Shown in pieces: positions 4,980 to 16,504 of a stretch of DNA of 21,642 bases. The notes under the pieces are model-generated. The model ran no database searches. It was not told the DNA's origin and was given only the letters and a program-made list of their open reading frames with translations. How positions within the stretch are numbered: the first letter of the stretch is position 1; the number at the start of each line of letters is the position of its first letter. The stretch lies in the IMG/VR virus record IMGVR_UViG_3300027676_000013, positions 1 to 21,642 of that record, one strand, 5' to 3'. This DNA is from a virus. The translations under genes were made by a program, and so were the position numbers.

Positions 4980-5755
4980 CAGCCGAGCACAGGCATGCTG
5001 ATGATACCCAGATTGTTTGCCGCATTCACGAATGCGCCGAATTCAAGGGTGGGCATATTGAAATCGCCTATCTTGGTGTCCCACAGATCCAGAGACTCCG
5101 GCACGCACTGATAAAGCTGGATATTCGTTTGCAAAGCTTGGTAGCTCGCACCCATCATCATCTGGAAGGCGTTTGCTGCTCCCGCAGAAGTGTTGCTGAG
5201 TGTGATCGTATCGCCGACAGACGCCAGCGTATACGCGTAGGAGATGAACACCGCAGCGCTCGCGTCCGCAGAATAGAATGTGTAAACGCCCGTCGTGGTG
5301 TTCACAGAATACTGGCCGGCGGCCGCAACAGAGGATACCCTAGTCAACGGCTCTCCCGTTGCCTGATAAATCACACCAAGGTCGAGGGCGAATGTAGCGG
5401 CGTTGGTGACCGTGATTGTGTAGGTGCTGCTGCCAGGAACATTATCCGCCTCGTTGTTTTGCACGATGGTCTGTCCGGCGTTCATCAGTGAGTTGTTAGC
5501 GCCGCCGATGAAATCGCGCACCAGACGGGGGCTGGACTCAGCAAACTTGATCTTGCCGCTGATCTTAATACTTGCTCTCCCTACGGCCTGCGCGAACACA
5601 TTTTGCCCAAAAAGCTCTTTATTTGAGGACTTTAGCGAAAGTGAGGACGACTGAAGTACCCGGATCTGCGTAGGCGTGGGATTCGTGTCGCTGTCGATCT
5701 GGAACGCATAGCCGGAATTGAACGGCGTCGAGGGCCAGTTATTCTGGGTCGTCAT
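4979..5755 (-). CDS. Tail tube (major tail) protein with inserted beta-domain
   Basis: A 258-residue protein identified as the tube subunit by its position (after the tail terminator, before the chaperones) and by sequence: NPTPTQIRVLQSSSLSLK, FGQNVFAQAVGRASIKISGK, and near the end WDTKIGDFNMPTLEFGAF. These match the phage tail tube family that begins with residues comparing the protein to a reference feature and ends in a beta strand. Residues 101-176 are an extra beta-rich domain (NEADNVPGSS, YTITV, then GQYSV, GVYTF, ISYAY) that also occurs in the head-tail connector of this phage. It probably decorates the tube surface. The start has AAGGAG eight bases upstream. Confidence 0.85.
   Translation of the reverse strand: MTTQNNWPSTPFNSGYAFQIDSDTNPTPTQIRVLQSSSLSLKSSNKELFGQNVFAQAVGRASIKISGKIKFAESSPRLVRDFIGGANNSLMNAGQTIVQNNEADNVPGSSTYTITVTNAATFALDLGVIYQATGEPLTRVSSVAAAGQYSVNTTTGVYTFYSADASAAVFISYAYTLASVGDTITLSNTSAGAANAFQMMMGASYQALQTNIQLYQCVPESLDLWDTKIGDFNMPTLEFGAFVNAANNLGIISMPVLG
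5228..5455 (-). repeat. Beta-domain copy 1 (in tail tube)
   Basis: Encodes residues 101-176 of the tail tube. It shares the ordered motifs NEA..VP, YT..V, A.D.GV.Y, GQYSV, GVYTF.SAD and ISY.Y with the connector protein domain encoded at 7060-7284. The two domains are of nearly the same length and align almost without gaps. Confidence 0.75.
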
Positions 5756-5785
5756 GGGGTGTTCTCCTTGAGGAAGAAGAGGGGG

Positions 5786-6217
5786 TTAAACTGTTGCGAG
5801 GATTTTAATGGGGATTACTGCGATGCCATCGCCGTCCAGATCGCCGGGGTCTTTCATGATCTTGCCGTCGATCCAGACATGCGAAACGAGGCCGCCGAGC
5901 GTTTGCCGCTTCGTTACGATGCTTGGCGCGAGCGCTGCGTCAACAGCGTCAATGAGCGGATTGAGTATGGAAATCGGCGTGATGCCGCTGTCCATTCCGG
6001 GAGCCGTGTAAATGTACAGATCGACGTTCATTTCCACGATAGGCAGGTATTGTTTGCCGTTCGTGTACGTGTCATCGCGCTCGTATTGAAAGATCGCGGG
6101 CTTATCCGCCGGGGATAGCGAACTCCAAAGTTGGAGCCTGCGGGACGCAGTCACGAATGATGCGGAGCCGGATACCAGGTTGAACAGCGCCGTCATGATG
6201 CTCTCTCTGGAGTTCAT
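5786..6217 (-). CDS. Tail terminator / head-tail joining protein
   Basis: A 143-residue protein placed between the HK97-gp10-like gene and the tail tube, the standard location of the tail terminator (lambda gpU-like). The sequence has MTALFNLVSGSASFVTASRR, LPIVEMNVDLYIYT and LIDAVDAALAPS followed by GGLVSHVWIDGKIM, a pattern common in this family, with alternating strands and one amphipathic helix. Tail terminators form a ring that ends tube growth and docks the tail to the head. It overlaps the upstream stop as ATGA, which favours the start at 6217; an internal ATG at 6196 (MTALFNL) is possible. The family match is by order and general sequence rather than a diagnostic motif. Confidence 0.75.
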   Translation of the reverse strand: MNSRESIMTALFNLVSGSASFVTASRRLQLWSSLSPADKPAIFQYERDDTYTNGKQYLPIVEMNVDLYIYTAPGMDSGITPISILNPLIDAVDAALAPSIVTKRQTLGGLVSHVWIDGKIMKDPGDLDGDGIAVIPIKILATV

Positions 6218-6690
6218 TCACGCGCTGCGCCCTTCACCGCCTGTTCGTAACTGCTCTGGATTTCCGGTTTCATGGCATCGAAGGCCTCGCCCATGTAGTG
6301 CGCGCCTTTGATGGTCGAGCCGGGGTGGTGCACGCGCTTGAAGAACACCTGCTTGCCGCCCATATTGAACGCCAGCGCCTTGCCGTTTACCGCCTCGATG
6401 ATGTGCGCCTTGGTCTGGCCTCCGAATTCCTGAATCCGCGCATATGGGAGGCCGCTGGAGAAAACGCGCCCGCTCACCTCGTTTGTCGAGTTCGTGACCT
6501 GCTCGAATATGGAGCGCACCAGCTTGCCGGTGCGGATATTGAGCAGCTTGTTCGTCAGGTTCTGCTGGACTTTGCTCTTGAGCTTTTCGGCGAGAGTGTA
6601 TGTAGTTTTCAGGATGCGCGCGCGTAGCTTATCAGGCATAACAGCCAGGCGTGCCATGATGGCGCGGTCGTCTATCTGGACATCGAGCAT
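6214..6690 (-). CDS. HK97 gp10-like head-tail joining / virion morphogenesis protein
   Basis: A 158-residue protein of the HK97-gp10 type. Typical elements are the helical N-terminus (KLRARILKTTYTLAEKLKSK), the NIRTGKLVRSIF segment that matches the family's TG.L..SI motif, and YARIQEFGGQTK, the family's YA.I.E.GG motif. Members act between the connector and the tail terminator during joining. The start is preceded by TAGGGCAGC, which supplies an AGGG binding site and includes the stop of the 58-residue gene upstream. It ends in a four-base ATGA overlap with the tail terminator gene. Confidence 0.9.
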   Translation of the reverse strand: MLDVQIDDRAIMARLAVMPDKLRARILKTTYTLAEKLKSKVQQNLTNKLLNIRTGKLVRSIFEQVTNSTNEVSGRVFSSGLPYARIQEFGGQTKAHIIEAVNGKALAFNMGGKQVFFKRVHHPGSTIKGAHYMGEAFDAMKPEIQSSYEQAVKGAARE

Positions 6691-6696
6691 GCTGCC

Positions 6697-6873
6697 CTAC
6701 TTCTCGGTAGAAATTCGCTTATGCTTCTTCGGCGTGGGCCAGTTGCCGGTTTTTATGAAGCTATAGAAATGATCTACAATCACCGTTGTCTGCTCGGGCT
6801 TGCCGCCTATCTGGATTGCCATCTCAAGGCATTTAAGCCGTATCTCTTCGTCTGCTTTCATGAGGTAATCCAT
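6697..6873 (-). CDS. Small phage protein, 58 residues
   Basis: This short frame fills the gap between the connector and the gp10-like gene, starting 6 bases after one stop and ending 6 bases before the next start. Its sequence begins MDYLMKADEEIRLKCLEMAI and continues QIGGKPEQTTVIVDHFYSFI, ending KTGNWPTPKKHKRIST. Small acidic-helix proteins with an ADEEIRL..LE.A pattern followed by a G and a Y..F segment are frequent in phage structural operons, but their role is unknown to me. No strong ribosome binding site is visible, so translation may be coupled to the connector gene. The tight packing and protein-like composition support it as real. Confidence 0.75.
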   Translation of the reverse strand: MDYLMKADEEIRLKCLEMAIQIGGKPEQTTVIVDHFYSFIKTGNWPTPKKHKRISTEK

Positions 6874-6879
6874 GCTGAG

Positions 6880-7716
6880 TTAAACCAAGATCACGCGCCG
6901 ATACGGCTGCAACACCGTCTTCAGGAAATCCGGCATGTCCTTCTGGCTGTAGGAGGTCGTTTCCTGTCCGCCGAGGCTTTTTGAAACTTCCCCGATCCGG
7001 TTGCGATACCGGTACCGCTCGCCCACCAGCTCGATACAGGCCTCCTCGATGTCCGAGGGGATGTAGCTGTAGGAGATCAGGACGGCTTGCGCGGAATCGG
7101 CGGAGTTGAACGTGTACACTCCGGCTGAGACTGAATACTGTCCTTGCGCCGGGCTTGATGCGACCGGTGCTAGCGCCGTGCCACTGCTGGCGTAGGTCAC
7201 TCCCTGATCCACCGCCCAATTGCCGTTTGGCGCATTCACCGCCACCGTATAACTACCCGAAGAAGGCACGGTCTGCGCCTCGTTCTGCACCACGAAGCCC
7301 GCAGTATAGACGATCTGCACGTTGCTGTTGCCGCGCGTGAACCGGAATCCGCGCAGGTCAACCGCCTGTGGGCGCCCCGGAGGGTAGCCGCTCCAAGGTT
7401 CAAGCACCCAGCCGCATCCGTATTGCGTGTAATAGGGGTTTGGCTGCTGCGGAACCTGGTATTGGATTATCGTCTGGTAATCGACCGTAACCGAAGTGAC
7501 TGAGAGCACCGGCCAGTGGCGGAGTATCTGCCGGGAATTACCGACTCCGTCATAGACATCGCTCGGCGACCACTGAAACAGCGTGCGCCGCTGAAGGTAA
7601 GAGAGGATAAACCGGCTAGCGTTGCCGATCAGACGCGTAATCAGCTGGTCGTCGTTCGTCGTCGTTACGTTTGCCCAGGACTTCGCATTGGCCAGGGTAG
7701 TGAGGTTATTGTTCAC
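6880..7716 (-). CDS. Head-tail connector (gp6-like) with inserted beta-domain
   Basis: A 278-residue protein with the helical N-terminus typical of HK97 gp6-type adaptors (DDQLITRLIGNASRFILSYL) and the family's C-terminal half (IPSDIEEACIELVGERYRYR, then a DFLKTVLQPYRRV end). The standard family core also has a strand block (LRHWPVLSVTSVTVDYQ). Residues 144-219 are a beta-domain insert homologous to that in the tail tube. The GTG start at 7716 overlaps the end of the previous gene by 11 bases and follows AAGGGCG; an upstream extension would be an Arg-rich tail (antisense-like composition) and is rejected. Adaptors of this type form a ring beneath the portal. Confidence 0.85.
   Translation of the reverse strand: MNNNLTTLANAKSWANVTTTNDDQLITRLIGNASRFILSYLQRRTLFQWSPSDVYDGVGNSRQILRHWPVLSVTSVTVDYQTIIQYQVPQQPNPYYTQYGCGWVLEPWSGYPPGRPQAVDLRGFRFTRGNSNVQIVYTAGFVVQNEAQTVPSSGSYTVAVNAPNGNWAVDQGVTYASSGTALAPVASSPAQGQYSVSAGVYTFNSADSAQAVLISYSYIPSDIEEACIELVGERYRYRNRIGEVSKSLGGQETTSYSQKDMPDFLKTVLQPYRRVILV
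7060..7284 (-). repeat. Beta-domain copy 2 (in head-tail connector)
   Basis: Encodes residues 144-218 of the connector. See the tail tube copy at 5228-5455 for the shared motifs. The insert lies between the strand block and the last helices of the connector, so it probably projects from the neck. Confidence 0.75.
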
Positions 7717-9661: not shown

Positions 9662-11911
9662 TCAGAGGTTCGGCAGTTCCATCGGATTGGACATCGAAAG
9701 CTTCATCAGCTCGCGCGCCTTTTCCGGCTGGGTCATTTTTGCGAACCTCGCCTTGTACTCAGCCTCGGTTTCGCCACTGGCGCCCCCGCTGTCCTGAGCT
9801 TTGGAAATCGCCCTCCCGTGGCCCTTGGGAGCAGCAGGCTGCCTTTCCAGGTGTTCCACCCTCTTTGCGAGTTCCGAATTCTCTTTCTGAAGGCTCTTGA
9901 TGAGACTGACACCGTCGAGCAGGGCTTTTCCCGCGTCGGCGTTTATCTTGGTCATCACCAGGACTTCATCGTTCTTTGCCGTAAGCTCAGCCAGCGCCTT
10001 GCTGATCTTCTGGGCACCACGGCCGTCCTCTTCCGGCTCGTCATCCATCACGCCCGCCGCCTTGAGGCATTTTTCGACCATTTCCATGTGATCGCAGGCC
10101 GACTTGTGGATATCCATGAGGTGTTCTTTGTCCTCAGCGCTGTGGCGCGCGCCCGCCTTTTCGAGCGCATCTTTCAGGGCAATGAAACGCTGCGCGGCCT
10201 TCTTCACCTCCGGCTTCACCAGATCCTTCTCATCGAAGGGGCGCATCTCGCCCACCATCTTGGCGAAGACCGCTGCATGACGCTTCGGAAGACTTGCGGC
10301 CATCGCGAGAGTTTCGTCATCATCCTCGTGGTTTTCGAGAAGTTCCTCCGTTTCCTCCTTGACCCGGTTGACCAAGCATGCGCAAAGCTGGGTAAGGATC
10401 GCTTTCATTTCAGCCGGGGTCATGGAATTGCCGTCGCCTTCCAGCGCTTCCTCGAATTCAACCGACTGGATAAACCACTGAAGTTCATCCACGAAGCAGG
10501 CCATGCGGCTCACATCATGCATGCCCTTGCTCACGCGACCTGAGATAAACGCCTTCCAGAGCTTAGCCGCCTTCTCGCTCTTGTCTTCGGCGCTGGGAGG
10601 GCCGTCCTTATCGATCTTGTCTTTCCAGGCAGCGACAATCTTGGCCTTGATCTTGTCAGCCTCCTCTGCGCTGTACTTGCTGGCGTTTTTCTTCTTGTGG
10701 ATATAGTTCCACGCCGCGCGAATGTGATCCTCAGTGTCCAGGGGATAACGCTTCTTCTTGTCTTTCTGATAACCCGGATCGGCGTAATCGACATCGCCGT
10801 ATGGCTCGTCGTCCTTCTTTTTCGCCTTGGCCAGAGCAGCAGCGGCAGCCGCCTTCTCGGCGTCTTCCTTCTCCTTGCGCTCTTTTTCTGCCTTTTCCGC
10901 GGCTTCCTTTTCCTCTTTCTCTTTGGCAGCAGCCTTTTTCTCGCGGCGCTCTTTCTTGGCCTTCTTCTCGTCTTCTGAGTCGCCGTCCTTATCCTCGTCG
11001 TCATCATCCTCGGGCTTCTTCGCCGCCTTGAGAAGCGCGTCCATTTCCGCGAGGCCGGGAGCAAGTTCTGCCTGCTTTTCGAGGTGAAGGTTATGAACCT
11101 CGGCTTCGCGCTTGCTGTCGTGCAACGAACCGTCCGCGGCCTGCCATTTGTTGAACTGCACCGGTGCCGACTTGGGCTTTACCGGCTTGCCATCCTTCAC
11201 GAGCGCTACCTTGACCGCGTCTTCCGCAGCTTTTGCCAGGAGCGCCTTCTGCTCATCCGTAGCCTCGCCTTTGGCATCCGCATCCTGGGCGGCTTTCAAC
11301 AGTTCGGCATCCGCCTTAGCAATGAGTGCCTTCTGTTCGTCGGTTGCGGTGCCTTTCGCCAGCGCGTCCTTCGCGGCGGCAAGTGCCTTGGGGTCCATAG
11401 AATCCTCTTTGTGTGAAGGGGTGAATTTGCGCATCTCGACCGAGCCGTCGGCCTTGATGTATTCGAATGTTGCCGTGGGAACGCAGGGATTATCGACGAT
11501 GGAGACTTCCGCCAGCGTCGGCGTGTAACGCATCACGCCGGAGTTATTCGGATCGGGCCACCGGCGCGCATAGCCCCCGCCGATGGAGAACCCGGTATAG
11601 ACGCCCTCGACGACCTTGTTCCATTCAGCGTCGTCAATGATCTTGGCGACACCGTCTATGCGTTTGGCATCATCATCGAACTTCAGGTCCGTCAGCTTCC
11701 CCGCCGCGATTGCACTGTGCATCGCGCGCACGTTGCCGAGCGACTTGCCGCCGGAGGCTTCCTTGATTTCGTTCGACCATTTTTCGAAGGCTGGCTTTGC
11801 TGTGGCGTAGTCGAGGATTTCATCGGACTTGTCGCGAACTTCCTCGCTGAGAGTGCCATACACCAGGCGCCGCTCCGCATCCACCTTGGTAATGGGGATG
11901 AAGAGGGCCAT
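9662..11911 (-). CDS. Prohead protease-scaffold fusion (XkdF-like N-terminus)
   Basis: A 749-residue protein, much longer than a usual 200-350 residue prohead protease. Residues 1-165 resemble XkdF/prohead serine proteases: RLVYGTLSEEVRDKSDEILD, then VRAMHSAIAAGK with a candidate His65, VYTGFSIGG, and LAEVSIVDNPCVPTA with a candidate Ser137. Residues 180-235 carry two KG.ATDEQKAL.AKA repeats. Residues 300-368 are extremely charged (DDDDEDKDGDSEDEKKAKK and KEKEEKEAAEKAEKERK). Residues 371-435 (YADPGYQKDKKKRYPLDTED, then HIRAAWNYI) resemble the DUF6582 module. The rest is helical with a coiled coil near 675-715 (LIKSLQKENSELAKRVEHL), as expected for a scaffold. It precedes the capsid gene, the normal order. 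The protease probably matures the head and then removes its own scaffold part. Confidence 0.85.
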   Translation of the reverse strand: MALFIPITKVDAERRLVYGTLSEEVRDKSDEILDYATAKPAFEKWSNEIKEASGGKSLGNVRAMHSAIAAGKLTDLKFDDDAKRIDGVAKIIDDAEWNKVVEGVYTGFSIGGGYARRWPDPNNSGVMRYTPTLAEVSIVDNPCVPTATFEYIKADGSVEMRKFTPSHKEDSMDPKALAAAKDALAKGTATDEQKALIAKADAELLKAAQDADAKGEATDEQKALLAKAAEDAVKVALVKDGKPVKPKSAPVQFNKWQAADGSLHDSKREAEVHNLHLEKQAELAPGLAEMDALLKAAKKPEDDDDEDKDGDSEDEKKAKKERREKKAAAKEKEEKEAAEKAEKERKEKEDAEKAAAAAALAKAKKKDDEPYGDVDYADPGYQKDKKKRYPLDTEDHIRAAWNYIHKKKNASKYSAEEADKIKAKIVAAWKDKIDKDGPPSAEDKSEKAAKLWKAFISGRVSKGMHDVSRMACFVDELQWFIQSVEFEEALEGDGNSMTPAEMKAILTQLCACLVNRVKEETEELLENHEDDDETLAMAASLPKRHAAVFAKMVGEMRPFDEKDLVKPEVKKAAQRFIALKDALEKAGARHSAEDKEHLMDIHKSACDHMEMVEKCLKAAGVMDDEPEEDGRGAQKISKALAELTAKNDEVLVMTKINADAGKALLDGVSLIKSLQKENSELAKRVEHLERQPAAPKGHGRAISKAQDSGGASGETEAEYKARFAKMTQPEKARELMKLSMSNPMELPNL

Positions 11912-11991: not shown

Positions 11992-12183
11992 TCAGTGTCT
12001 CGTAGCGGTGGTAATGTTTAATTCACAGAGCGCCACATATCGCTGCGCATCCAAATCACCCAGCTTCGCCGCGCGCTGGATACGCGCCAGCAGCATAAAC
12101 TTCTGCACCGAGAGGATGTTCGGGTTGTTTGAGTTGAGGACGGCGATGACGTTCTGAATTACGCTATTCGTCTGCGTCGTCAT
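11992..12183 (-). CDS. Small phage protein, 63 residues, unknown function
   Basis: Overlaps the end of the MuF-like frame by 20 bases. The ATG at 12183 has AGGGC seven bases upstream; the ATG at 12189 is also in frame but has no site at a good distance. The sequence is helical and hydrophilic: TQTNSVIQNVIAVLNSNNPN, then ILSVQKFMLLARIQRAAKLG and DLDAQRYVALCELNI. I do not recognise a family. Its place between head morphogenesis and protease-scaffold genes suggests a minor head or assembly role. Confidence 0.7.
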   Translation of the reverse strand: MTTQTNSVIQNVIAVLNSNNPNILSVQKFMLLARIQRAAKLGDLDAQRYVALCELNITTATRH

Positions 12184-12937
12184 TGTCATCGCCCTGTTGG
12201 TTCCTCACGACTGACTCGGTATGACAGCGGCAACGGCAATGGGCGGGCTCGCAATCGTCGCCGCTTGGAAACTGCTCTTCAACTTCGATTACACCCGCAT
12301 CAGCATTTTCTTCACAATCCTCACAGGGATCATCATCCGTAACCCACTGTTTTCCGAGGTCAACTCCTGCTGCCTTAGCTTCCTTGTATCCGGCAAGCGC
12401 ACCGTGCCCGGTTGCCATCGCCACTTCCGTGTCGGCTATCAGAGTGGCGCGGTCCACGCTGAAGATGCCAGAGGCGAGAATCTCATCGATGATGTCCTCA
12501 CGCATCGCGCCTTCTTCAAGGCCGTCAGCGATGATGCCCCGCAGCATGTCACGAGTCGAGTCATCGATATCAGTCACCAGCTCAGCGGCACGCTGCTTTG
12601 CATAAGCCGCAGCTCGCTCGTTCGCGTGGCTGAAGAAATCGGTTTCCTCGGAAATTCCAAGGGAGAGCAGTTCGTCACCGGCACGATCTGCCGCAACATC
12701 ATCAAGCCACGGATGCACTGCGGTGAGCCCGGCAAGTAATCCGAGGTCGAGATCGGTGACTATGCCGTCCGCCTGATCGTCATCGCTATCCGCCTTGCCG
12801 AGCTTTCCCAGCGCTGTTTTGAGCTGCCTGCGTACCGAAGTGCCAGCTTTCGCCAGTACCTTCTCGGCGAGCTTCTTTACGGCCTTGCGTGATCCCCGTG
12901 CGACTTCCCGGTCATGAGGAGATATGGATTGGGCTTT
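12164..12937 (-). CDS. MuF-like head morphogenesis domain, in the -1 frame of portal
   Basis: This frame encodes the phage head morphogenesis (Mu gpF / SPP1 gp7) C-terminal domain: helical FFSHANERAAAYAKQRAAEL, LADGLEEG-like turn (RGIIADGLEEGAMREDI), and the cysteine-rich end with DDPCEDCEENADAG and EPAHCRCRCH, matching the family's C..C...G....P.H..CRC pattern. The frame is open from a stop at 12971 but has no ATG, GTG or TTG before GTG 12718, which has no ribosome binding site and lies in the middle of a helical region. The part upstream of that GTG (HDREVARGSRKAVKKLAEKV, then LAKAGTSVRRQLKTALGKLG) is protein-like. It is therefore best explained as the C-terminal part of a portal fusion made by -1 frameshifting at 12934-12943: 517 portal residues plus 257 here, 774 in total. 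A sequencing error in the A run is the main alternative. Confidence 0.8.
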   Translation of the reverse strand, partial: KAQSISPHDREVARGSRKAVKKLAEKVLAKAGTSVRRQLKTALGKLGKADSDDDQADGIVTDLDLGLLAGLTAVHPWLDDVAADRAGDELLSLGISEETDFFSHANERAAAYAKQRAAELVTDIDDSTRDMLRGIIADGLEEGAMREDIIDEILASGIFSVDRATLIADTEVAMATGHGALAGYKEAKAAGVDLGKQWVTDDDPCEDCEENADAGVIEVEEQFPSGDDCEPAHCRCRCHTESVVRNQQGDDNDDADE

Positions 12938-14487
12938 TTTTTTAAGTCCGCCTGCGCGAGCTTTTTGGCATCATCCTTTTGATTTGCCTTGTTCTTCGGC
13001 TTTGGCTGTTTCGGACCATCACCGCCTTGTCCATCCCCCCCGGCGTGTTCATCATTCAGTGACGGACCGCCGTTATGGCCCATGCGCGCGGCTGCGGCAT
13101 CACTCATAGCCTGCTGCTGCGCCTGATTATCGGCGTCCTGCTCTTCCTGGGATTTAATAGCGACATAGCCGGTTGCGGTGAGGGCCATCGGAGTCGCGAA
13201 CGCACCACCCAAAGCATCTTCACCCATACCATCGCGGGCTTCGTCGATTGAGATGATTCCGGCCTTGACGTCACCCTGCCGAATCGTTGCGGCCACCTCG
13301 GGATCCATTTCCCGGTCGTCCTGGTAATCAAACACCAGATCCGGCGACTTGAAATCCTCGGTAATGATCCGGTTCCAGAACTTCCGGATGAGTTTCTGAA
13401 GGGGCGCAAGTCCTTCCTCGCGCGCCTGGTCGTGCTGGCTGTCCGCCACGGCACGGTTATTCGCTTTCACAAGAGGAGTGGGCGATATCGAGAATACGAA
13501 GCAGATTACGCGGTTCAAGAAGTCGTCATAGTCATCCTTCAGCACCGGTTCTTTCGTCGCCTGGTACTTGAAGTCGCCCGGCAGGAATCGGGCACGGCGG
13601 CGCATACCCAGGTTGCCGGCGAGCAGCGCATCCCACCACTTCTGGAAATCCGAAATCTGCTCCTGTGTCCACTCTTTCGGCAGCCCTATCAGCGCATCCG
13701 GCTGGCTTCCCTCGCGGTAATATTCCAACTGCGACAGAGCCCGGCGGATAGCCGTGTTTACCGTGATAATTATCTGCTCGACGTGGGAATAGCCGTACAG
13801 CTTGTTGCTGCGCGGGTTGCGTATCAGATAAAGCAGTTCGTCCGATGTGTAATCAACCGCTGGAACGCCCTTCAGGATTTCCTGATAAGCGGGGTCCGGC
13901 GGCAAAGGGCGGCAACCATAGTCGTCCACCAACGGCTTGATCTTCGCTCCGTCGATAATCTTCAACGCATAGAGATTGCCCTTGCGATCTGGCCAGCGAT
14001 AGACGCTCGCCGCATCAATCACGAATACATCTTCCAGGAACATCCGCATCCACGGGTCGAAGCCCCGTTCCTTGTCGGGGCTTTCCATGAAGGCGGTAAT
14101 CTTGTCGATGCGGTTTAGCTGATCGGAGGTCGCGGTCACGCGCTTCTTGTCGCCGTCCAGGGGCTTTACTTTTACGCCCCAGTCCAGCGCCTCGATCTGG
14201 TCTTTTCTGGTCTCGATGACGGCGCGCAGGACATCACAGTTGTCCGCCAGCCCGCGCATATCCTCAAACGAAATACCCTCGGATGAGCGCGGCGTGTAAT
14301 TAAGGTTAAGCCCGGTAGGATAATCCCATGTGCGGCCCTTGACTTCGGCGGGAGCCATGGGCCTGAGCGGCTGGAACGGGCCGAACCACGCGTCCGGCGC
14401 AACTCCGCTGATAACGTAGCGCGCGGCCTGTGTGATACGCGAGATCACACCGGAGGGGATCGGGGTAACCTTTCCTCCCTCCGGCAT
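12877..14487 (-). CDS. Portal protein
   Basis: A 536-residue portal, the twelve-subunit ring through which DNA enters the head and to which the tail joins. Typical segments are the DYPTGLNLNYTPR start region, LADNCDVLRAVIETRKDQIE, the MESPDKERGFDPWMRMFLED block, DAASVYRWPDRKGNLYALKI, YTSDELLYLIRNPRSNKLYG with GYSHVEQII, and the ISPTPLVKANNRAVADSQ stretch of the tunnel region. The C-terminal 70 residues are disordered and include RMGHNGGPSLNDE, a GHNGGP motif often seen at phage protein ends. In the zero frame it stops at 12877, 20 residues past an A9 run; a -1 slip there extends it into the MuF domain. It lies 22 bases after the 243-residue gene. Confidence 0.93.
   Translation of the reverse strand: MPEGGKVTPIPSGVISRITQAARYVISGVAPDAWFGPFQPLRPMAPAEVKGRTWDYPTGLNLNYTPRSSEGISFEDMRGLADNCDVLRAVIETRKDQIEALDWGVKVKPLDGDKKRVTATSDQLNRIDKITAFMESPDKERGFDPWMRMFLEDVFVIDAASVYRWPDRKGNLYALKIIDGAKIKPLVDDYGCRPLPPDPAYQEILKGVPAVDYTSDELLYLIRNPRSNKLYGYSHVEQIIITVNTAIRRALSQLEYYREGSQPDALIGLPKEWTQEQISDFQKWWDALLAGNLGMRRRARFLPGDFKYQATKEPVLKDDYDDFLNRVICFVFSISPTPLVKANNRAVADSQHDQAREEGLAPLQKLIRKFWNRIITEDFKSPDLVFDYQDDREMDPEVAATIRQGDVKAGIISIDEARDGMGEDALGGAFATPMALTATGYVAIKSQEEQDADNQAQQQAMSDAAAARMGHNGGPSLNDEHAGGDGQGGDGPKQPKPKNKANQKDDAKKLAQADLKKKPNPYLLMTGKSHGDHARP
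12934..12943 (-). promoter_or_regulatory. dnaX-type slippery site A_AAA_AAG joining portal to MuF frame
   Basis: Nine A followed by G on the minus strand. In the portal frame the codons are TTA AAA AAA AAG, so the heptamer A AAA AAG sits in the correct phase for a -1 slip, the same heptamer used in E. coli dnaX. The MuF frame is exactly the -1 frame. AGGCGG a few bases upstream could act as an internal Shine-Dalgarno stimulator. Transcriptional slippage on the A9 run would also give mixed products. Confidence 0.7.
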
Positions 14488-15256: not shown

Positions 15257-16504
15257 TTAGGGTTGTTTCGTCTTTTCGGTAGATTTTTGCGCTTCGGCGG
15301 CCTGCGACTCGACGAAGCCGAGCCAGCCGGCGCCCGCAACAGGTAGTGTTTTCTTTCTGACCGCCAGCGCCAGCGCGCACACGCAGTCGTCGTGGAATCC
15401 TTCCGGCGCGGAATACCGGACGCCTGTGCGCGTGTATTCATATTCAAACTGCTCCAGCTCCGAGACGATGGCGCCTACCGGGTAGCCGACCTGCTTCTGC
15501 TGAATCGCTACCGCGAGCCCCTCCATGAGCTGCTGTTTGCTCGCCTGGCTGAATTTGAAGCCTTCAAAATTGGTCCCCCCGTTCGCCTGCAGCGCTTCGA
15601 GAACGGGATCGCCGACGCCTGTGCTGTCCACCAACGCCGGGAGCTTGCCGGTAACCGCGCGGATATACGAGATAGTGTCCTGCCAGGACTTCTGAAACCG
15701 CTCGAACCGGCATACATCGCCGTTCTTGTCGAGGCCTATGCCGACCGTCCAGTCATACGACTTCGCCAAATCCCAAGCCCAGCAAACCGGCTCCAGATTT
15801 GACAGGGCCTTGATGCAGCCCTGAATGGCCGTGATGCCGAACGGGTTGCCGCCGTCATCAGACGGCTCGGCGAGGTAAAGCTCGCGGAAGATGTTCTCTG
15901 GAAGCTCCTGCCGCGCCGCCTCAATCTCTTCTGCCGCGAGAACACCACCCTCCACTGCGTCGTATGCGGTGAGCTTGTGGTATTCCATGTTCGGATCACC
16001 GGCCTGCGCTTTGCGGCAGAGACGGTAAAACCAGTTTTTTCGGCCCTTGACGTTTCCGATCGCCCGGAGTGAACCGCGCGTCGCCGTCAGCGTCGTCCGG
16101 ATAGCCGTGTACGCCTCTTCGCGCAGACGGCTGGCCTCATCGATGACCACGTCGTAAACGTCGTCGCCGTACAGGTTGTCGGGCTTCTCGCCGGACTTGA
16201 ACCAGATATTTGCGCCGTTGATGAACGCCAGGCGCAGCTTTGTGTCATGAGCATCGAAGATGTTCTTCGGAAGCCCATGCTTCATGCGCGTATAGGCAAT
16301 TTCTGCCTGACCGTAAACCGGAGCCACCCACCAGCGGTTTTGATTGGGCTTCGCGCCGATCAGGCTCTTTTCCAAGAGCCACGCCATGTTCCCGACCGTC
16401 TTACCGGCCTTCGTGCTGGCCTCGATGAACCCGTAGCGCTTATTGTGGAATATCGCAGCCTGCTGCTTGGGATACAGCGGCGGACGGCAATACTGAATGT
16501 TCAT
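15257..16504 (-). CDS. terL: Terminase large subunit
   Basis: A 415-residue packaging motor ATPase and nuclease. The Walker A motif is EASTKAGKT (28-36), Walker B is YDVVIDEASR with D122 and E123, and the coupling region follows (RGSLRAIGNVKGRKNWFY). The nuclease half has the acidic residues D245 (WAWDLAKSYD), D293 (LVDSTGVGDP) and D372/D373 (FHDDCVCALALA), as in RNase H-fold terminase nucleases. It starts in an ATGA overlap with the small subunit, which confirms the start. It drives DNA into the prohead through the portal and cuts at the end of packaging. Confidence 0.96.
   Translation of the reverse strand: MNIQYCRPPLYPKQQAAIFHNKRYGFIEASTKAGKTVGNMAWLLEKSLIGAKPNQNRWWVAPVYGQAEIAYTRMKHGLPKNIFDAHDTKLRLAFINGANIWFKSGEKPDNLYGDDVYDVVIDEASRLREEAYTAIRTTLTATRGSLRAIGNVKGRKNWFYRLCRKAQAGDPNMEYHKLTAYDAVEGGVLAAEEIEAARQELPENIFRELYLAEPSDDGGNPFGITAIQGCIKALSNLEPVCWAWDLAKSYDWTVGIGLDKNGDVCRFERFQKSWQDTISYIRAVTGKLPALVDSTGVGDPVLEALQANGGTNFEGFKFSQASKQQLMEGLAVAIQQKQVGYPVGAIVSELEQFEYEYTRTGVRYSAPEGFHDDCVCALALAVRKKTLPVAGAGWLGFVESQAAEAQKSTEKTKQP

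Follow-up and report, generated by a model that had tools for sequence, protein, structure and literature searches.

Putative programmed slippage at a conserved run of adenines joining portal and MuF reading frames in tailed phages

Introduction

Portal subunits assemble as a ring, which is a 12-mer in the tailed phages that have been characterised. In SPP1, the MuF protein gp7 binds the portal protein gp6 and is thereby taken into the procapsid in a small number of copies; gp7 is dispensable for assembly, and just about a quarter of the virions made without it are infectious (PMC6316719). Portal and MuF are also known as single-gene fusions, as in Microbacterium phage clusters EA and EB (PMC7302621). 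The locus described here raises the question of how a MuF product is made when portal and MuF lie in two different frames that meet at a run of nine A's. An earlier note on this DNA suggested a portal-MuF fusion made by -1 frameshifting at a dnaX-like A_AAA_AAG site, a link between the two proteins for which it gave no precedent. Herein, we follow that proposal from the locus to its relatives, and then to portal-MuF junctions in general.

The Portal-MuF Locus

The window, which is the whole stretch of DNA analysed, is a 21,642-base IMG/VR virus record derived from an assembly, with its head genes on the minus strand. The relevant features are as follows.

12877..14487, minus strand: portal open reading frame, zero frame, 536 aa (PF04860 at residues 97-420; PHROG 2662 positions 31-471 of 717)
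13228..14199, minus strand: Phage_portal domain (PF04860 match)
12164..12970, minus strand: open -1 frame, with its stop at 12164-12166 (PHROG 2662 positions 489-712 of 717)
12218..12532, minus strand: Phage_Mu_F domain, PF04233 (residues 136-240 of the translated -1 frame)
12935..12943, minus strand: A9 tract (T9 on the plus strand), followed by G at 12934; identical and in phase in L002/L003, L004, L005, L006 and L007
12934..12940, minus strand: in-frame slippery heptamer A_AAA_AAG within the A9G run, read from the sequence
12877..12933, minus strand: dual-coded overlap, with the portal tail and stop in the zero frame and the MuF N-terminus in the -1 frame
12716..12718, minus strand: GTG, the earliest candidate start in the MuF frame, rejected; 72 codons past the slip site
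15257..16504, minus strand: terminase large subunit, as context (PF17289, PF04466, PHROG 2)
9662..11911, minus strand: head maturation protease/scaffold-like gene, as context (weak Peptidase_S78_2; PHROG 9427, head maturation protease; DUF6582)

The zero frame scores above the portal cut-off of PF04860 (E=4.3e-13, 49.6 bits against 39.1) and matches PHROG 2662 with E=5.6e-71, and the -1 frame likewise exceeds the Phage_Mu_F cut-off of PF04233 (E=1.5e-8, 35.7 bits against 29.6). Because the single PHROG 2662 model aligns to both frames, portal then MuF, the window belongs to this fusion family and is a portal-MuF chain split over two frames. As the earlier note had it, the MuF frame is the -1 frame of the portal and the two meet at A9 plus G (12943-12934), where the portal frame reads TTA AAA AAA AAG and so holds the heptamer in phase; only the opening of the -1 frame needs correction, to 12970 from 12971. 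Downstream of the run, the zero frame closes with the 18-residue tail PNPYLLMTGKSHGDHARP, and the MuF extension is decoded from 12934 to the stop. The predicted products are those first proposed, a portal of 536 residues and, after a -1 slip, a portal-MuF of 518+256 = 774. The MuF homology model starts 14 nt past the site. In the neighbouring gene at 9662-11911, the internal DUF6582 domain (E=2e-15) is accompanied by a long charged repeat region.

Conservation of the Slip Site in Close Relatives

Four relatives matched by their portals at 71-83% identity, and a further two at 60%, all keep A9+G in the same phase. These six come from separate metagenomes, represent five distinct portal clusters and share the two-frame layout, in which the zero frame stops 12-19 codons past the site and MuF goes on in -1. 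Both arrangements envisaged beforehand for homologues exist: these six have the same A-rich site with two frames, and others have a single fused frame. A conserved slippery site and a constant -1 frame overlap, the marks of a programmed -1 frameshift gene, are both present.

The pattern of substitution within the six-member clade shows how the two frames are used. Differences in the overlap number 72/54/89 across the three codon positions and, because they fall on all three, both frames of the overlap appear to be read. Downstream of the portal stop, as far as GTG 12718, differences number 181/156/370 at -1-frame positions 1/2/3, and this clustering at the third position indicates that the stretch upstream of the GTG is translated in the -1 frame, in agreement with the earlier reading of the frame as coding well before its only start.

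These comparisons bear on two simpler accounts of the split. The first holds that the gene is decayed, or that the split is an error of sequencing or assembly. Long runs of one base are prone to such errors and the record is itself assembled, but the same A9G recurs in the same phase in six relatives of 60-83% identity, with both frames constrained, and the same layout recurs in 23 clusters of the survey described below. The shared A9G rules out a sequencing error, and we give this first account almost no credence. The second, an independent MuF gene whose translation begins at an internal codon or is coupled to termination of the portal, is very unlikely. In 12 of the 23 two-frame clusters an ATG, GTG or TTG does occur no more than 40 nt from the portal stop; in addition, MuF is separate and ATG-started in L043, and in L123 a tract-less separate frame has an ATG of its own. 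Set against these cases, the window, L002 and L004 have no start near the portal stop, and GTG 12718 sits well inside conserved coding sequence. Moreover, MuF homology begins 2-26 nt past the site in 23/23 two-frame clusters, and an independent gene leaves the A-tract unexplained. For the window itself, an independent MuF start is ruled out by the -1-frame constraint together with the homology onsets.

Some relatives depart from this layout. L065, at 61% identity and in the same clade as the window, is a one-frame fusion without the tract; the long tract is missing at positions 1821-1840 of this sister of L006, and the site can accordingly be lost or absent. L021 carries A9 in phase 2 (6344-6352) after a portal 60% identical to that of the window, followed by a C-terminal extension that is not recognisable as MuF, and slippage may also serve other fused domains.

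A Survey of Portal-MuF Junctions

Viral and bacterial genome contigs were scanned for the same arrangement. A first scan of genome contigs with close alignment gave no matches, and wider alignment gave loci; the scans yielded 344 loci, which form 196 portal clusters at 90% identity. MuF lies directly downstream of portal in 130 of these clusters, which are taken as the non-redundant junctions. The junctions are of several kinds. Twenty-three are two-frame, with MuF in -1 in every case, and 22 of these have a tract of 8-10 A's (A8C in L328); the remaining one, L200, has just A6G (TCA AAA AAG). Their hosts include a gammaproteobacterial MAG, Nitrosomonadales and Chlorobiaceae. A further 22 clusters encode portal-MuF in one frame and still carry A9/A10 at the junction, while 16 others have a short in-frame A_AAA_AAG or A_AAA_AAA there; L036, from Limnobacter litoralis, is a one-frame locus with a long tract. 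Finally, most of the remainder, 67 of the 130 clusters, are one-frame fusions with no A site. Since around half of the family lacks an A site, the two products are either not universally needed or are made otherwise.

Long runs of A are concentrated at the joint. Runs of at least nine A's number 43 in 54.3 kb of junctions, whereas the portal and MuF domains outside them hold none in 235.5 kb, and 43 of the 44 junction runs of at least eight A's have a length of 9-10. Before any tract-based choice of queries, about 21 of the 25 A/T runs of at least nine in 1.03 Mb already lay at junctions. Later queries were partly picked for bearing tracts and the clusters are related, so that tract frequencies are not population estimates; the contrast between the joint and elsewhere inside the same genes is unaffected by query choice. 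Runs of seven A's at the joint are in the phase xxA AAA AAA in 12 of 14 cases. Measured against each gene's own usage, the all-AAA lysine codons give a summed log10 P of -54.7 over 43 clusters, a value uncorrected for relatedness. Several of the joints are in genomes of 62-67% GC whose lysine codons are nearly all AAG, as in L126, with 3 AAA versus 44 AAG. A lysine-rich linker arising by chance was considered, and is ruled out by this codon usage and by the lack of A>=9 runs elsewhere in the domains.

The survey also yielded a number of separate observations. Across 65 one-frame clusters that lack an A-tract, in-frame heptamers of other X_XXY_YYZ types (GGGAAAA, CCCTTTC) occur at 0.73/kb at the joint and 0.22/kb elsewhere in the genes. 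L014 has an intein/Hint-like insertion (CLPGDSL ... VTHNC) at about 5300-7279, in the MuF part of a one-frame portal-MuF. L087, L246, L266, L267, L280 and others are MuF-less portals with long C-terminal fusions past a DERGRFTTAD-like motif, some of which resemble enzymes (lysozyme-like in L280); the fusions may be cargo attached to the portal. L350 (NZ_CP119142.1), a Neisseria gonorrhoeae chromosome filed as a plasmid in PLSDB, has a tract-less one-frame portal-MuF-like ORF that is missing from the collection's gene table.

Two Classes of Slippage Signal

The junctions with A sites resemble, in their sequence signals, both of the solutions known from dnaX: a short heptamer with stimulators, and a bare A9/A10. 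The 16 short-heptamer clusters have a Shine-Dalgarno (SD)-like sequence about 12 nt upstream (median duplex -9.7 vs -3.7 kcal/mol, p=8e-9), its core being present in 14/16 against a background of 11%, and they have downstream hairpins (mean z -1.62, p=0.003). L349, from a finished plasmid record of Herbaspirillum seropedicae AU13965 (NZ_CP034394.1), combines AAGGAGG and a CCGGUC/GACCGG hairpin with an in-phase A7. The long-tract clusters, by comparison, have no SD excess (core in 3/23 two-frame and 2/22 one-frame clusters) and no hairpin excess (z about 0). Host tRNA-Lys content was tried as a divider of ribosome and polymerase classes and fails to separate them, tRNA-Lys(CUU) being found in the hosts of the short-heptamer loci L029, L030 and L046 and also of long-tract loci, L048 being one example.

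By its sequence, the window is of the long-tract class. No GGAG/GAGG core was found upstream of its site and its downstream hairpin is insignificant (z = +0.75 to +1.55), so that the E. coli dnaX-type ribosomal signal of upstream SD-like element plus downstream stem-loop is absent, while the Thermus thermophilus dnaX-type homopolymer of at least nine A/T is present as A9. A search of Rfam gave no match (E<=0.1) for the window site, or for loci L349, L345, L029 and L335. The earlier proposal of a dnaX-like frameshift is therefore retained in part. Slippage in the -1 sense at the tract is strongly supported by the conserved site, phase and layout, the PHROG 2662 match and the lack of a MuF start in the window; the likeness to E. 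coli dnaX does not extend to its stimulators.

Inversion of the Default Product

Long tracts occur in both two-frame and one-frame genes, and the two states are interspersed. On a portal tree of 130 rows, 11 changes are needed to explain the two-frame label, and starred branches force at least 8 of them. At the joint, a single base separates two near relatives, the one-frame L035 (A10GCTTGCC) and the two-frame L305 (A10CTTGCC), with the tract intact; both are assemblies and the pair could hold a sequencing error, although the tree-wide pattern is independent of it. In the one-frame A9/A10 genes, the median distance to a stop is 6 codons in -1 (19 at random, p=0.003) and 2.5 codons in +1 (16 at random, p=5e-7) and, because stops are near in both, a slip in either direction would end translation a few codons on and so shorten the protein. 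In such genes the unslipped product would be portal-MuF, and slippage would cut it to a bare portal. Since these one-frame relatives use the run in the opposite sense, the conserved trait is the pair of products. To judge from the sequences, the stable feature is the capacity for both bare portal and portal-MuF, and not which of them is the default.

Alternation of this kind might also be expected of a contingency locus, in which replication slippage toggles the MuF extension between individual phages with no programmed decoding. Long homopolymers are mutable, and the one-frame and two-frame states do alternate on the tree. Nevertheless, two-frame states with a tract are always -1 and never +1, tract length is constant at 9-10, and the L035/L305 frame flip falls outside the run; furthermore, the short-heptamer branch bears SD and hairpin signals, which work in translation only. 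We regard a contingency locus as highly improbable.

Proposed Mechanism

The reading that we favour, and hold to be highly probable from the sequence evidence, is that programmed slippage by one machine or the other makes portal and portal-MuF from one gene. Regular decoding of A9G in the window would end 18 codons on, giving the bare portal, and slippage would shift a fraction into -1, giving a portal-MuF that shares the portal body. Covalent fusion alone would give each portal subunit a MuF, whereas slippage would restore a mixed ring. With the subunits arranged in a ring, the frequency of slippage would govern how much MuF the procapsid receives at the portal, by analogy with the few copies of gp7 in SPP1, and a fixed product ratio may place a few MuF domains in the head. 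The layout, its conservation, the enrichment of A runs, the recurrent inversion of frame and the two classes of signal are seen in the sequences; the occurrence of slippage, its rate, its machine and its role in the head are all predictions.

Either the ribosome or RNA polymerase could be the slipping agent. T. thermophilus dnaX provides the precedent for polymerase: there, RNA polymerase slips at 9-10 A's, with stops in both other frames (PMC5009743). Two-ORF dnaX genes with A10, all of them -1, are likewise assigned to polymerase slippage in PMC3711429. Because the window belongs to the long-tract class, slippage by RNA polymerase is no less likely than a ribosomal shift; the agent in the window is probably RNA polymerase, which would make some transcripts one A longer, and -1 slippage of the ribosome on A_AAA_AAG, without stimulators, possibly acts alongside. 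The main counter-argument is the constant direction. According to Antonov et al. 2013 (PMC3711429), ribosomal cases keep to one direction and polymerase cases show both, and by this rule the uniform -1 of the two-frame genes counts against polymerase; insertion-biased slippage, though, would also yield -1. Weighing the long-tract features against the constant -1, we therefore put polymerase involvement in the window, given programmed slippage, at slightly better than even.

A purely ribosomal -1 frameshift on A_AAA_AAG, with the long tract merely making the lysine codons slippery, is a form of programmed slippage itself, and overlaps with the reading favoured above; it is a possible but less probable version. 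It accords with the heptamer being in phase, with -1 in 23/23 two-frame clusters, with the two-frame state of L200 on A6G alone with GGAG upstream and of L328 on A8C, and with the short-heptamer members, L349 included, that have full E. coli dnaX-type signals. It accounts less well for junction runs that are nearly all 9-10 A's long, beyond what a ribosome needs, for the lack of SD cores and hairpins in the long-tract class, and for the near +1 stops of one-frame long-tract members, of which a -1 ribosomal shift makes no use.

Comparison with Known Systems

In E. coli dnaX, which encodes tau and gamma, a ribosomal -1 frameshift takes place at A_AAA_AAG with an SD-like element and a stem-loop. 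The window shares the heptamer, the short-heptamer relatives share the SD-like element and hairpin, and in the one-frame relatives a slip truncates the longer product, as it does in dnaX. In contrast, portal-MuF is non-homologous and encodes a virion protein, the window carries A9 in place of A6 and neither stimulator, and a slip in the window extends the product instead of truncating it. The long-tract junctions resemble T. thermophilus dnaX and the two-ORF A10 dnaX genes in having A9/A10 without stimulators. One-frame portal-MuF genes, with near stops in both non-zero frames, parallel the former, and two-frame genes, which need a slip for the longer product, parallel the latter. Portal-MuF is, however, not homologous to T. 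thermophilus dnaX, and the likeness on the portal side is one of sequence.

The fusions of PHROG 2662, of Microbacterium clusters EA/EB and of Arthrobacter phage Sonali have the same order, portal then MuF, and PHROG 2662 spans the window frames, but these fusions are described as plain, with no slip site reported. A run of six or more A's was looked for in the portal-MuF ORFs of Sonali, Polewnik, Strzyga and MMB025, and none was found. SPP1 gp6/gp7 offers a functional parallel, as portal there brings few MuF copies into the procapsid, although through separate genes and non-covalent binding with no frameshift. The lambda G/GT tail chaperone, the T3, A2 and PSA capsid extensions and SPP1 17.1* are all cases in which slippage gives a minority extended virion or assembly protein; they concern other genes, and none was found that involves portal. 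Portals are not mentioned in the main text of recoding reviews and surveys that include PMC3711429 and PMC4066793, and a search of open-access papers found no programmed slippage in a portal gene. Programmed slippage giving two forms of one protein is thus known, and no earlier report for a portal gene was found.

Implications

It appears reasonably likely that a broad family of tailed phages tunes the MuF count on its portal ring via a conserved A-site, that the default has been inverted repeatedly, and that both the ribosome, with SD element and hairpin, and RNA polymerase, on A9/A10, have been recruited to the same task, as in dnaX but in a virion protein. If this is true, portal would become one of the few phage genes known to undergo programmed recoding, and the gene callers' habit of missing or splitting MuF in such phages would be accounted for. 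The joint would represent a natural experiment in which both dnaX solutions and both defaults have evolved many times. The stoichiometry of portal to MuF would become a directly measurable question, and slippage would provide a concrete means to set the number of MuF domains per head, and hence that of any cargo fused to MuF.
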